Shown in pieces: positions 32,502-41,112 of a stretch of DNA of 62,181 nucleotides (the first letter of the stretch is position 1; the number at the start of each line of letters is the position of its first letter). Origin of the DNA: a virus; the IMG/VR virus record IMGVR_UViG_3300042374_000456, positions 1 through 62,181 of that record. One strand, written 5' to 3'. Position numbers and translations under genes: made by a program. The notes beneath the pieces were generated by a model. That model worked only from the letters and a program-made list of their open reading frames with translations, was not told the origin of the DNA and made no database searches.

Positions 32502-33773
32502 ATGGCAACATTAACATCAGGACAGACCAAAAGTTTAAATAATTTAGCTTCAGCTACCGGTCAAGCTACAAAATCAATGTCAGCAGCAAAAGGAAATTCA
32601 ACAGGTCCTATTGCAATGTCATCATTTGCAATTGATTCGGTAGATTCGGTAACTGGTTATACATACGCAGTGGAATCTACAACTGAAACATATACATTAG
32701 GTTTTACTGGTGCTGGTTCAAATTTTAGTAGAATTAGTGGTAGAGCAGCAAACTTTACATGGAGTGTAGCAGCAGGTTCATATATAACATTGGGAACAAA
32801 TAGTGGTACAACCGCTACTTTTACAATTTCTAATATGAATCCACAATCACCATCAGCACAAACTTCACTTTTAACTGCACAATCTAATACAATTAGAGCA
32901 GTATTTGCAGATGGTTATAATACTCATGCAACTGGATATAATTCAAATAAAGATAAGACGGTTTATTCCGTAGATTCATATGATGGTAACTCAACCGCTT
33001 TATGTTTAACAATTGATTCACCAATAGTGTTATCAGATGGTTCAATAGTAGAAGCAGGAGATTTAGTAGAAGGTGATAAGTTAAAAGGTTATTCATTATC
33101 TGGTTTAACATTAGATTCTGATAATAATTTCTTTAATTGGTCATCATCTGAATTAGGTCAAGAATTAAAAGAAGTAGAAGTTAAGGGTATTGTATACTCA
33201 TTCTCATCAAAATATTATGATATAAACAATGGTGGAGTAACTGCAACATCAGAACATCCATTATTAGTAAAAGATTCTGAAGATGGTAAATATAGATTCA
33301 AAGAAATATTTAGAATTACAACTGACGATAAATTAGTAAAAGAAGAAGGTGGAGTTTTAGTAGAAAAAGATATTACATCAATTGAATTAATAAATAGAAC
33401 ATCTGAAATCGTTTCAATTGACGTTGAAGATGTAGATACTTATTTGGTAAATGGATATGTAACCCACAATAAAGGTGGAAACACATTTGCAGATTTAGCA
33501 GCACCTGGTGCACCAACATCAGTAGCATATGCATCTCCGTTTGTATCGTGGGTTGCACCGGCATCAGTAGGAACAGGTGGTATTACTGCATATGATGTAC
33601 AAATATCAACAGGAAATACATTTGTTTCTAACACAGTAGATAATACTGAATGGAGTGAAGCTAATATAGAAGTTAATACTCTATTAACTGCAGGGACTTG
33701 GTATGTTAGAGTTAGAGCGATTGACCAAGGTCTTAAAGGGACTTGGAGTAGTGCAGTTTCATTTGTTAGATAA
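32502..33773 (+). CDS. Fibre-type virion protein with embedded Hint (intein-like) domain and FN3 domain
   Basis: Residues 1-165 are Ser/Thr/Ala-rich beta structure like phage adhesins. Residues 168-323 form a Hint domain: Cys168 in LCLTIDSPIVLSDGSIVEAGDLVEGDKL (block A), TSEHP with His252 (block B), and DVDTYLVNGYVTHN ending in His322-Asn323 (block G). There is no homing endonuclease. The residue after Asn323 is Lys, not Cys/Ser/Thr, so normal splicing is unlikely; this resembles type-A bacterial-intein-like domains that cleave. Residues about 335-420 are a fibronectin-III domain (PTSVAYASPFVSWVAP...WYVRVRAIDQG). AGGA precedes ATG. The product may be cut into an adhesin part and an FN3 part. 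Confidence 0.85.
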   Translation: MATLTSGQTKSLNNLASATGQATKSMSAAKGNSTGPIAMSSFAIDSVDSVTGYTYAVESTTETYTLGFTGAGSNFSRISGRAANFTWSVAAGSYITLGTNSGTTATFTISNMNPQSPSAQTSLLTAQSNTIRAVFADGYNTHATGYNSNKDKTVYSVDSYDGNSTALCLTIDSPIVLSDGSIVEAGDLVEGDKLKGYSLSGLTLDSDNNFFNWSSSELGQELKEVEVKGIVYSFSSKYYDINNGGVTATSEHPLLVKDSEDGKYRFKEIFRITTDDKLVKEEGGVLVEKDITSIELINRTSEIVSIDVEDVDTYLVNGYVTHNKGGNTFADLAAPGAPTSVAYASPFVSWVAPASVGTGGITAYDVQISTGNTFVSNTVDNTEWSEANIEVNTLLTAGTWYVRVRAIDQGLKGTWSSAVSFVR

Positions 33774-36634: not shown

Positions 36635-37123
36635 ATGGCAGAAATATTAGAGTTTAACGAAATGTTCTATACCAACTTTGAACCAAAGATGAAAAATCGT
36701 TTCATCATGGAAATCGGTGGTATCCCTTCATATCTTATCAAAGCTGGAAACAGACCAAACATTCAGTTTGAAGTTGTAACACTTGAACACATCAACTTAA
36801 AAAGAAAGTTGAAAGGTAAAGGTGAATGGCAAGATTTAGAAATCACATTATATGACCCAATTGTACCATCAGGTGCACAGGCAGTAATGGAGTGGGTTAG
36901 AACTTCACATGAATCCCTAACAGGACGTGATGGATATGCAGATTTCTACAAAAAAGATATTGATATCTATATGTTAGGACCAGTTGGTGATAAAATCGAA
37001 CAATGGAAACTAAAAGGTGCATTTATTTCAAACGCACAATTTGGTGATTTAGATTGGACATCAAATGACCCTGCAGAAATCACATTAACGTTATCTTATG
37101 ATTACGCAATACTTGAATTCTAA
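36635..37123 (+). CDS. 19: Tail tube protein, gp19-like
   Basis: The 162-residue protein matches T4 gp19 in length and pattern: NRFIMEIGGIPSYLIKAGNRPNI near the N-terminus, LKRKLKGKGEWQDLEITLYDPI in the middle and a C-terminal AEITLTLSYDYAILEF strand. Hexameric rings of this protein form the inner tube through which DNA passes. It has a strong AGGAG site ten bases before ATG and is followed by a terminator, suggesting a strong monocistronic message suited to an abundant protein. Confidence 0.95.
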   Translation: MAEILEFNEMFYTNFEPKMKNRFIMEIGGIPSYLIKAGNRPNIQFEVVTLEHINLKRKLKGKGEWQDLEITLYDPIVPSGAQAVMEWVRTSHESLTGRDGYADFYKKDIDIYMLGPVGDKIEQWKLKGAFISNAQFGDLDWTSNDPAEITLTLSYDYAILEF

Positions 37124-37228: not shown

Positions 37229-37984
37229 ATGTCACAATACGAATTCGCAACCGAGATAGTATCGTTACCATCACAAGGTAAATGCTATCCAGTAACAAAT
37301 CCATTATCAAGTGGTAACATTGAATTAAAATACATGACCGCAAGAGAGGAGGAAATTCTTTCATCTCAAAGTCTAATTAAAAAAGGTGTAGTATTAGATA
37401 AATTATTCGAAGCAATTATAGTAGATAAAGCAGTAAATCCAGATGATATAATTCTGGGTGATAAGAATGCTATTATGTTGGCAACTCGTATTTTAGGATA
37501 CGGACCTGATTATAAAATTCAAATACAAACCTCAACCGGAGAAACGGATACAATTAGTGTTGATTTGGGTAAAGTTCAAACAAAGGATATCGATTTTAGT
37601 AAATTGACTTCTGATAATCGTTATACATTTAAAACATCTACTGGTAATGTATTAGTTTTTAAATTATTAACTCATGGTGATGAAAAGAGAATTGATGCCG
37701 ATGTTACTGCAATGAAACGATTAAGTAAAGATTCAATGGGTGGAGAATTAACTACTCGTTATCGTTATATGATAGTTTCCGTTGATGGGAATGAAGATAC
37801 TAAATCAATTACTGATTTTATTAATAATAAATTTTTATCAAAAGACACTAAATCTTTTAGAGAGCATTTAAAATCAATCCAACCGGATATTAAAATGGAG
37901 TTTGATTATACTGACCCAGAGACGGGAGAAACGGAGGTACGCTCTATACCAATGGGCGTAAACTTTTTTTGGCCTTCCGAGTAA
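37229..37984 (+). CDS. Baseplate/tail assembly protein, T4 gp26-like (zero-frame product)
   Basis: The 251-residue protein carries the signature of the T4 base-plate protein family containing gp26: LPSQGKCYPVTNPLSSGNIELKYMTAREEEILSSQSLIKKGVVLDKLFEAII at residues 11-62. The rest is a beta-rich region then a helical C-terminus, ending FFWPSE. In T4 this protein belongs to the baseplate hub pathway; it may be an assembly chaperone. AAAGGT lies seven bases before ATG. A run of seven T at 37964-37970, eight codons from the stop, appears to let some ribosomes shift into a second frame that continues to 38195. Confidence 0.8.
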   Translation: MSQYEFATEIVSLPSQGKCYPVTNPLSSGNIELKYMTAREEEILSSQSLIKKGVVLDKLFEAIIVDKAVNPDDIILGDKNAIMLATRILGYGPDYKIQIQTSTGETDTISVDLGKVQTKDIDFSKLTSDNRYTFKTSTGNVLVFKLLTHGDEKRIDADVTAMKRLSKDSMGGELTTRYRYMIVSVDGNEDTKSITDFINNKFLSKDTKSFREHLKSIQPDIKMEFDYTDPETGETEVRSIPMGVNFFWPSE

Positions 37985-38195
37985 TTATTCTGTCCTATTA
38001 CATAAACAAATTTTTGAATTATGTTATCATGGACATGGATTCATTCAATCCGATGTTTATAGATTACCAATTCATTTAAGAAATTTTTATTATAAAGAAT
38101 TGGTTGATGCTAAGAAAAAGGAAAATGATGCCACAAATAAAGCACAAAAAACTAGCCAACCATCAAAAGGACCTGGTGTAAGAGTGAGGAAATAA
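37962..38195 (+). CDS. Second-frame extension of the gp26-like protein via +1 (or -2) frameshift
   Basis: This frame opens right after a stop at 37959-37961 and stays open to TAA at 38193-38195. It reads, after the T7 run, GLPSNYSVLLHKQIF then ELCYHGHGFIQSDVYRLPIH and LRNFYYKELVDAKKKE, ending in a basic tail. It contains no ATG at all and no GTG or TTG in its first 40 codons. The overlap spans the zero-frame stop. The pattern resembles the second component of tail assembly chaperones, which in many phages is made by programmed frameshifting. A terminator stem begins within its final codons, marking the true 3' end. A +1 shift at TTT TTT T would give a 321-residue fusion. Confidence 0.75.
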   Translation, partial: TFFGLPSNYSVLLHKQIFELCYHGHGFIQSDVYRLPIHLRNFYYKELVDAKKKENDATNKAQKTSQPSKGPGVRVRK

Positions 38196-38211
38196 ATTCC
38201 TCACTTTTTTT
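38184..38211 (+). terminator. Rho-independent terminator overlapping the frameshift ORF stop
   Basis: GTGAGGAA/TTCCTCAC stem, five-base loop containing part of the stop codon region, then seven T. Confidence 0.92.
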
Positions 38212-38236: not shown

Positions 38237-38500
38237 ATGGAAAATACTATGAAATTAACTGAAACAAAGAAAAAAAGCATAAAAGAATTTATAACCAAAA
38301 AACATTCTATACGAGAAGGTGTAATAGAATATATCTTTGGAAAAATTTTAGTAAATAAACTAAAAAACGATAAAGATTTTGTTGCTATGGCTAATAAATT
38401 AGATAGAGATATGCAAGAGCTTAGAGATGAGGTAGAAAGATTAAAAGCTCAAGGGAAACGAATTCCTAACTCATATAAACATATCTTAAACATAGATTAA
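38237..38500 (+). CDS. Small helical protein before the tape-measure gene (87 aa)
   Basis: A basic, almost entirely helical protein (TETKKKSIKEFITKKHSI, then VAMANKLDRDMQELRDEVERLKAQG). No family recognised. The start could also be the ATG at 38249, which gives a spacing from the late motif closer to that of other genes. It heads the tape-measure/baseplate unit. Confidence 0.7.
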   Translation: MENTMKLTETKKKSIKEFITKKHSIREGVIEYIFGKILVNKLKNDKDFVAMANKLDRDMQELRDEVERLKAQGKRIPNSYKHILNID

Positions 38501-38517
38501 TTTAGAATATTAATATA

Positions 38518-41112
38518 ATGGCAGACCAGCAACAAAATTTAAAATATGCCAAAGAGATGGCAGACAAACAACGGGAGCAAGTTCGTATTCAAGAAGAATA
38601 CAACGAAGCTATAAAAATGTCTTCATCTCTAAGTAGTAAATTACAGGATGATATAGAGTATACAGTAAAAACAAATGCAGAATTAGGTGAAAAGGCTAAG
38701 GAGTATTTGGGTAGTTTAAAATCTTCAATAAGTGGATTATCTTCATCAAAAGATATTAGTAAACAATTAGTCACTATTGAACAAGATAAATTAAAAATAC
38801 AAAATAATGCATTTAATTTAACTGAAGCCGAAAACACTGCATTATTAGAACAATTAGATATTGCTAAAAGGGCTCTAAATATAGAAGAACAACGGGTATT
38901 AATAACTGAAAAAGTAAATCAAGCAGCAACAAAACTATCGGAAACAATGGGGGGTGCGTTTGATGGATTGGTAGCAAGTGTAAAAGAGATACCTGTAATT
39001 GGTAAGTTATTAGGTGGGTTGGGTGATATTGGTACAAAAATGTTAAAAGAAAAATTATCCAACGCCGCAATGAAATTTACCACCGATTTTTCTAAAGGTT
39101 TGGCAGATGGTAAGGGAACTATGCAAGCATTATCTGGTGCAGCAGGAGGGTTAGGTAAATCATTATCATTTCTTGCAAATCCATACGTTTTAGTAGCAGC
39201 AGCAGTATTGGCTGTAGCACTAGCAGGTGTATTAGCATTTTATAAAATGAGTGCAGCAGCTAAACAATTTAGAGAAGAGACTGGGTTATTAAACTCTCAA
39301 ACAAAAGGTTTAGAAGCTCAAATTGGTAGAGTATATAGTGCAACGGCCCCATTGGGTGGTTCAATGGAAGATGCTTCTAAAGCCGCAACTGCGTTCACAC
39401 GCGAATTTAGTGGTATCGAATTGGCATCCGATGAAGTACTAACTTCAATGGTAGTAATGAACAAAAATTTTGGAGTTGGAGTAGAAGAAGCATCTAAATT
39501 AAATAAAGTAATTCAAAATATAGGTGGATTAAGTGCAGAACAATCACAAGCACTAATAGGTCAAACTGTATCTATGGCTCAGTTAGCCAATGTTGCTCCA
39601 AGTCAAGTTATTAAAGATATGGCTGAAAATTCTGAATATGCTTATAAGTATTTTCAGGGTTCTCCGCAAGAACTAGCTAAAGCAGCAGTTCAAGCAGCCA
39701 AATTAGGAACATCTATTGGTGAGGCAGGAAAAGTAGCAGATAATTTATTAGATTTTGAAAATAGTATTACCTCAGAATTAGAAGCAAGTGCAATATTAGG
39801 TACTAATCTAAATTTAGGTCAAGCAAGATATCTAGCAGCAAATGGAAAAATATTAGAAGCACAACAATCGGTTGTTGACCAAGTAGGACAATTAGGAGAT
39901 TTGACAAAATTAAATACATTTGAACAAGAGGCCCTTACAAAAGCAACTGGTATGTCAATATCTGATTTAGAAAATCAAAGAAGAATTAAAGAACGATTTA
40001 GTGATTTAGATGAAGAACAACTAGCTGCTGCACTACAATTTCAAAAAACGGGTGGTGATATAAGTAAAATGACTAAAGCAGATTTGACAGAACAAACTAA
40101 AAAATTAGCCTTACAACAAGAAATGCAAACAGAATTTGATAAATCTGCTAATGCATTAAGTGCAATAGGCAGTGAATTTATGATGTCATTATTACCAATC
40201 GGTAAATTTTTAATGGATGTATTGATGGTTGGTATATCATACCTACAAGGGGTATGGGGTCCTATTGCAAAAGCAGTTGGTCATGTTGTAGATGCAGTTA
40301 GTAAGATATTTAAACCATTTCAAGATTTATTTGGAACATCTGGGGGTGGTATGATGATGAAAGTATTTGAATTTATTGGTAATATAGTAGGTGGTTCACT
40401 TACATTTGCATTTGAATATATAGCAGGTGTAGTTGGTTCAATAGCAGATGTAATTGGTGGGGTATTTAAAATCATAAAAGGTATATTTACTTTGGATTTT
40501 GGAATGGTAATGGAAGGACTAGGACAAGGATTAAAAGGTATTTTTGGATATATTTTACGTTTACCTATTGCATTATTTAACGCGTTTTTAGATATGTTCC
40601 CTGATTTGGGTGCAAAAATTGTAGATTTCTTTAGTAGTATTGGTAGTAAAATGAAAGGATTTTTTTCAGGTATACTACCCTCTTGGTTAGGAGGTTCTAA
40701 AAGTGATGCATCAAAAGTACAATCGGAAGCAGCAACAACACCTCCACCTGCAATAAATGACGGTATTGTTCAAAATGGTAAAATAATAAGTACAAATCCA
40801 GCAGATACTTTAATAGCAACAAAAAAACCTAACGAATTAGTAAACTCAGTAAAACCACCAGATGGATTATCAACTCCAGTAGCTCCAGCTGAAGGTGGTA
40901 TAGGTGGGTTATTAAATGGTGTAGGTGATTATATGGGTAAAGTTGCAGGTTCATTCAATGGTAGCAATAGAATTATAGAAAAATTAGATGAATTAATACT
41001 TGCTACACGCGGCGGTAAAAATATCTATATGGATAGAGAAAAAGTTTCATCAGCAGTCGCAACAACAAACGAAAAAAGTGGTGAAAACCGATTTGGATTA
41101 ATGGGAGCTTAA
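38518..41112 (+). CDS. Tail tape measure protein
   Basis: The 864-residue protein is mostly helical with a charged coiled-coil N-terminus (residues 1-130). Ala/Gly-rich hydrophobic segments follow (around 220-242, VLVAAAVLAVALAGVLAFY), with more hydrophobic helices at about 570-690 (LPIGKFLMDVLMVGISYLQG, FEYIAGVVGSIADVIGGVFKIIKGIF). It ends in a Pro/Gly-rich tail. Such composition, and its place between sheath/tube genes and baseplate genes, identify a tape measure that sets tail length and is expelled into the envelope. In T4 this role is played by gp29; sequence similarity to it is not obvious by eye. The next gene starts two bases after the stop. Confidence 0.8.
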   Translation: MADQQQNLKYAKEMADKQREQVRIQEEYNEAIKMSSSLSSKLQDDIEYTVKTNAELGEKAKEYLGSLKSSISGLSSSKDISKQLVTIEQDKLKIQNNAFNLTEAENTALLEQLDIAKRALNIEEQRVLITEKVNQAATKLSETMGGAFDGLVASVKEIPVIGKLLGGLGDIGTKMLKEKLSNAAMKFTTDFSKGLADGKGTMQALSGAAGGLGKSLSFLANPYVLVAAAVLAVALAGVLAFYKMSAAAKQFREETGLLNSQTKGLEAQIGRVYSATAPLGGSMEDASKAATAFTREFSGIELASDEVLTSMVVMNKNFGVGVEEASKLNKVIQNIGGLSAEQSQALIGQTVSMAQLANVAPSQVIKDMAENSEYAYKYFQGSPQELAKAAVQAAKLGTSIGEAGKVADNLLDFENSITSELEASAILGTNLNLGQARYLAANGKILEAQQSVVDQVGQLGDLTKLNTFEQEALTKATGMSISDLENQRRIKERFSDLDEEQLAAALQFQKTGGDISKMTKADLTEQTKKLALQQEMQTEFDKSANALSAIGSEFMMSLLPIGKFLMDVLMVGISYLQGVWGPIAKAVGHVVDAVSKIFKPFQDLFGTSGGGMMMKVFEFIGNIVGGSLTFAFEYIAGVVGSIADVIGGVFKIIKGIFTLDFGMVMEGLGQGLKGIFGYILRLPIALFNAFLDMFPDLGAKIVDFFSSIGSKMKGFFSGILPSWLGGSKSDASKVQSEAATTPPPAINDGIVQNGKIISTNPADTLIATKKPNELVNSVKPPDGLSTPVAPAEGGIGGLLNGVGDYMGKVAGSFNGSNRIIEKLDELILATRGGKNIYMDREKVSSAVATTNEKSGENRFGLMGA

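Follow-up and report, generated by a model that had tools for sequence, protein, structure and literature searches.

A conserved recoding site in a T4-type tail assembly chaperone gene, probably read by +1 ribosomal frameshifting

Within the window, the whole 62,181-nucleotide stretch of viral DNA analysed here, a gene that we read from its sequence as a T4-type tail assembly chaperone (TAC) carries a conserved recoding site at a run of seven T (T7), and the comparison of its relatives indicates that this site is real. The gene would encode a short form (TAC-N) and a fused form (TAC-NC), the latter probably produced by a programmed +1 ribosomal frameshift at UUU_UUU_U, a reading to which we assign a probability of about 0.74. 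A T4-like phage and more than 100 relatives seem to make long and short forms of one tail-assembly protein.

The zero-frame open reading frame (positions 37229..37984, plus strand) encodes the short form of 251 residues, which ends in ...MGVNFFWPSE and matches the PHROG_150 baseplate hub family with an E-value of 7.9e-8. Its match to the Pfam family T4_baseplate (PF12322) lies just under the curated cut-off (22.9 bits vs 24.5, E-value 7.8e-5), which is exceeded by the relatives LR756508 (L041), a Streptococcus phage (L042) and SP-15. T4 gp26 (8.8e-64) and gp51 (3.9e-52) both match the same family, in agreement with the preliminary description of a gp26-like gene. AlphaFold2 predicted the zero-frame product with a pLDDT of 89.5, the two parts of the protein being folded separately. 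Structural similarity search using Foldseek revealed that the predicted structure resembles T4-like baseplate hub proteins, with a TM score of 0.83 for the protein of SP-15; no relative with a solved structure was found by fold.

The gene also lies where a tail assembly chaperone would be expected, as a gp26 relative between the tail tube gene (36635..37123, plus strand; PHROG_4542, 1.1e-31) and a gene for a long protein (38518..41112, plus strand), which by position and length is probably the tape measure. The latter protein found no PHROG support of its own in the PHROG comparison; its equivalents in immuto, SP-15 and LIS04 carry a tape measure annotation. A tail sheath gene also lies upstream of the chaperone gene, and a Gp23 major capsid protein is encoded elsewhere in the window. 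One PF12322 match and no gp26/gp51 gene pair were found over these 62 kb, which come from a record that may be incomplete. An 87-residue open reading frame without a family match of note (38237-38500) lies between the chaperone and presumed tape measure genes. Two genes before the tail sheath gene, positions 32502-33773 encode a protein with a weak match to the intein-like PT-HINT domain (4.6e-6) plus an fn3 domain.

The zero frame ends at a TAA (37982..37984, plus strand), the fifth codon past the codon pair that contains the T7, with four codons, TGG to GAG, in between. The +1 frame has a TAA at 37959-37961, is open from 37962 and stops at a TAA at 38193-38195, so that the two frame ends, their overlap and the T7 within it are all located as first described. 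It was also correctly noticed that this frame lacks an ATG and an early alternative start: its sole TTG (38100) and GTG (38184) are both within the conserved domain. The extension, a TAC-C-like domain of 74 codons plus stop (37971..38195, plus strand), is supported by the frame of the relatives, by selection and by its predicted helical structure, and would give a fused product of 321 residues. A terminator had been placed at its end, where we found an intrinsic terminator-like hairpin with a T tail (38180..38208, plus strand; -14.9 kcal/mol, z = -5.4) that overlaps the +1-frame stop.

A protein search yielded 37 loci, of which all readable ones share the offset and the T7 down to 64% identity, and a profile search added 80 further loci. 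In relatives with readable sequence, including the phage records immuto, Mel-JY01, LR756508, Streptococcus GXN1, SP-15 and LIS04, the extension lies in the +1 frame at 119 of 119 loci, down to 26% identity, and never in frame 0 or -1. The extension profile gives E-values of 1e-15 to 1e-44 in the +1 frame and nothing comparable in the others. As this profile was built from part of the 119 loci, the independent part consists of L046, L049 onwards and 12 genome-assembly loci, all 12 of which (two with identical sequence) have the +1 extension. Altogether, the comparison strongly supports the frame change proposed at the T7 in the preliminary description. Moreover, the +1 frame past the zero-frame stop has a pN/pS ratio of 0.30 among 81 clusters, against 1.15 and 1.07 for the other frames; within the short overlap the ratio is 0.33 for the +1 and 1.14 for the zero frame (117 pairs). 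No ATG, GTG or TTG precedes the domain in the +1 frame in 36 of the 81 clusters; binomial figures for the 81 clusters are descriptive only, because the clusters are related. The fused product is annotated in none of the annotated phages examined. In the public annotations (L039, L040, L043 and L046), Mel-JY01 has two overlapping open reading frames, SP-15 a 40-residue fragment and immuto a 37-residue frame, and the +1 region of LIS04 is blank.

The purifying selection agrees with the earlier judgement that the second frame encodes a plausible protein, whereas the “several strands and helices” then ascribed to it gave way to a predicted short helical domain (helices at residues 8-23, 28-32 and 36-63). 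This domain had no significant fold match among viral proteins, and profile comparison with the C-terminus of T4 gp51 detected no homology, the likeness being one of layout. A relationship to DUF6760, a contractile-injection-system family, was dropped, as one of 13 members matches, with an E-value of 0.17.

The shift site TTT TTT T(GG) (37964..37970, plus strand) consists of exactly seven T and is read in the window as AAC TTT TTT TGG. In 75 of 81 clusters the frame junction keeps this slippery site, with exactly seven T in this phase and GG, AC or AT after them. In the synonymous-conservation scan of the whole fused gene, the two TTT codons and the next codon rank first. At the first Phe position 79/81 clusters use TTT, against a TTT share of 73% among Phe codons, and the base 5' of the run is T in none of the 81, where codon usage would predict about 44; the codons ahead of the run are Asn AAC, Asp GAC and Gly, mostly GGG. 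The run is thereby limited to seven T, and its phase rules out the -1 heptamer T_TTT_TTT. Runs of T8 or more are almost absent, the one case being a T8 at the genome-assembly locus L133. Divergent relatives in which the run is interrupted or shorter have the extension in +1 as well: TTC TTT TAC in L092, TTT CTT TGG in immuto, TTT CTA TTC in LR756508, TTC TTT CGT in the Streptococcus phage, TTT TTT CAC in SP-15 and TTT TTT AGT in LIS04. These divergent sites permit +1 re-pairing of the P-site tRNA, whereas -2 re-pairing fails in L092, LR756508 and the Streptococcus phage; of the +1 and -2 options left side by side at first, they favour +1. The site does not conform to the canonical -1 slippery pattern X_XXY_YYZ, and the extension is +1 in every relative. 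No known RNA family was found at the shift site. A second in-frame TTT TTT T is present at 40660-40666 in the presumed tape measure gene, with no obvious frame change.

Two further conserved elements, absent from the preliminary description, lie upstream of the T7. A Shine-Dalgarno (SD)-like GGAGG (37933..37937, plus strand; -37..-33 from the A-site codon) is present at this fixed position in 58 of 81 clusters vs 21 of 18547 same-phase positions elsewhere in the gene, and its codons E236 (GAG) and 235 (mostly G-ending) are among the highest in the synonymous-conservation scan. The Firmicute phages do not have it. Across the window, GGAGG occurs 30 times on the plus and three times on the minus strand. 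Between GGAGG and T7 there is a putative hairpin, UACGCUC-N9-GGGCGUA (37938..37960, plus strand; -8.1 kcal/mol), which leaves AAC before the T7. In 40 clusters, the region from GGAGG to T7 folds with a mean of -6.1 kcal/mol vs -3.8 kcal/mol after synonymous recoding (sd of the null mean 0.30), compared to an excess of about two sd at most in control regions of the gene. The paired sequences vary between clades; one pair stands out for compensatory change in the TAC group, and covariation in the window's own clade was not significant. As the covariation is weak, we grade the hairpin as likely, short of proven. Comparison shows that the +1 coding frame, the shift site, the GGAGG and the tendency to form a hairpin are all conserved.

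Based on these features, we propose that most ribosomes would terminate at 37984 and release the short form, whereas some would slip +1 with the peptidyl-tRNA-Phe on either UUU codon, moving from UUU to UUU with perfect re-pairing while UGG, or UAC/UAU in relatives, waits as the next codon. The shifted ribosomes would read 74 extra codons and thereby add the small helical domain. We prefer a +1 shift by the ribosome because the divergent sites allow +1, a -2 shift fails at three of them, and slippage of the E. coli polymerase needs at least seven T. A counterpoint is that the T7 exceeds the need of such a slip, for which TTT T is enough. In lambda, the tape measure is coated by the short form, whereas tail tube subunits are brought in by the extension; a similar division of labour may, by analogy, apply to the short and long forms here. 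We infer the ribosomal nature of the shift, the parts played by GGAGG and the hairpin, and the function and ratio of both products.

The two upstream elements suggest a stimulator in which GGAGG would pair with the anti-SD of the 16S rRNA and the hairpin would loop out 23 nt. In the window, GGAGG is 26 nt from the first UUU, a distance that would fall to 3 nt only through formation of the hairpin. Among the 55 clusters that have both elements, the spacing left by the hairpin is 1-14 nt, most commonly 3 nt. An SD spacing of 3 nt is optimal for +1 shifts, compared to 9-14 nt for -1 shifts (PMC5009743). We put forward this split SD, brought to about 3 nt by a hairpin during elongation, as a tentative idea that stays on the doubtful side of even odds. 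This spread of the spacing among relatives, and the fact that a ribosome on the T7 would cover the hairpin, both count against the proposal. As for GGAGG, the anti-SD is normally occluded in ribosomes of Bacteroidia (PMC8710568), and SD-like sequences precede 8 of 51 gene starts in the window. The near absence of SD starts, together with the relatives (Flavobacterium phage immuto, and assemblies binned with Flavobacteriales and Saprospiraceae), indicates that the host is probably a member of the Bacteroidota. The +1 site of Flavobacterium prfB, AGGAGGUAUCUU UGA, nevertheless keeps a perfect AGGAGG though the anti-SD is mostly occluded (PMC8710568). One fold pairs GGAGG with the U run; an SD-like role was preferred, as an A-rich sequence would pair better with the run.

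The same hairpin and U7 also resemble a polymerase slippage or pause signal, and RNA polymerase might drop one U or add two, which would join the frames in part of the mRNAs; a one-base deletion gives the identical +1 product. Exactly seven T is the minimum for E. coli RNA polymerase, with about 10% deletion at T8 (PMC6260861), and the hairpin directly upstream is stronger than under synonymous recoding. However, a cellular polymerase should not slip at the broken or short runs of immuto, L092, LR756508 and the Streptococcus phage, which keep the +1 offset, the better-slipping T8 or longer runs are almost absent, and GGAGG is left unexplained. We regard polymerase slippage as unlikely, yet deserving of some weight. 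Less probable still is a ribosomal -2 shift, by which tRNA-Phe would move back two bases in the U7 and insert one extra Phe (NFFFGLPS). The U7 lets the second UUU re-pair two bases back, and the first Phe codon is TTT above the codon-usage prediction; three relatives nevertheless share the frame at sites where such re-pairing fails, and a -2 shift gives no reason for GGAGG.

The +1 domain could instead be a separate small gene, translated by internal or coupled initiation, as the TAATG overlap before the homologous domain of LR756511 and the two overlapping frames annotated in Mel-JY01 would suggest. Against this very improbable arrangement, a start codon before the domain is lacking in the window as in the 36 clusters, and selection on the +1 frame is already seen in the overlapping stretch immediately 3' of the T7. 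Finally, a homopolymer at the junction could raise the suspicion of a sequencing or assembly error, or of a decayed fused gene. A sequencing error at the T7 was rejected, as more than 100 separately assembled relatives have the same offset; the 119 loci come from many assemblies, most of them with T7, and also from phages sequenced from cultures, and purifying selection acts on the +1 frame. The chance of error or decay is negligible.

Frameshifting in tail chaperone genes is conserved from the lambda gpG/gpGT case onwards (Xu, Hendrix, Duda 2004, as cited in PMC5009743). The gene of the window has the same place between tail tube and presumed tape measure, and would likewise give a short product and a minor one with a C-terminal domain from a shifted frame near the 3' end. 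Compared to lambda and most others, which shift -1, it belongs to the T4-type family, would shift +1 and has GGAGG and a putative hairpin upstream. Besides the known -1 cases, a -2 case is known in Mu and a likely +1 case in the tail chaperone of the haloarchaeal myovirus HSTV-2 (PMC5009743). A +1 shift also occurs in phage tail genes of Listeria PSA and A118, although there it is CCC-based and in structural protein genes (PMC5009743). The G-T shift is described as conserved “except T4” (PMC5009743), and for T4-type phages a short and a long gene are reported as tail assembly chaperones (cited in PMC10885494 and PMC12846349). The T4 proteins gp26 and gp51 share PF12322 with the window gene, gp51 being the longer of the two by a C-terminal extension. 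Their genes are separate in T4 and lie on opposite strands, reportedly with no frameshift (Vladimirov, Gautam and Davidson 2022), whereas the window has one gene with two inferred products.

In Rak2-like jumbo phages (Atu_ph07, 121Q, Phosso and PA5oct; L048, L142-L144), a homologous gene has its extension from the equivalent FF motif, but in the -1 frame after T TTT TTC (G TTT TTC... in PA5oct), some with an overlapping ATG; these extensions are annotated as separate small frames or not at all. In LR756511 (L047, ~2777), a 595 kb phage, the ATG of the extension homologue overlaps the zero-frame stop (TAATG) in a start-stop coupling. The +1 route is found in the window's clade, Thornevirus and the Streptococcus phage. 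Outside phages, bacterial prfB has a +1 shift stimulated by an SD-like GGAGG/AGGGGG, its slip site being CUU_U or UUU_U, and immuto has the CUU_U; prfB differs in that its A site holds a stop codon and its SD is directly 3 nt away, compared to a sense codon and a putative intervening hairpin in the window. Hairpins that shorten a long SD spacer are known from the split ribosome binding sites of T4 genes 38 and 25, where they serve initiation, whereas the window hairpin would act in elongation (PMC3014915).

TAC frameshifting is already known; its +1 variant in the T4-type family looks new, as far as the literature searched shows. T4-type phages are the stated exception to tail-chaperone frameshifting, an exception that the window gene appears to break. 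One gene family has apparently taken four routes to two products, namely separate genes (T4), -1 (Rak2-like), start-stop overlap (LR756511) and +1 (the window's clade and Firmicute T4-likes), so that a change in direction of a recoding site can be studied within it. GGAGG, hairpin and U7 would together make a compact, testable putative +1 stimulator, and a split SD, if true, would be used in phages whose likely Bacteroidota hosts hardly use SD pairing for initiation. Among the records examined, the end of NHDW01000006.1 (L138, L139; 306 kb, binned with Methylococcaceae) repeats an internal stretch exactly over 4972/4972 bases; the contig probably represents a jumbo phage genome whose assembly ran on beyond its starting point.
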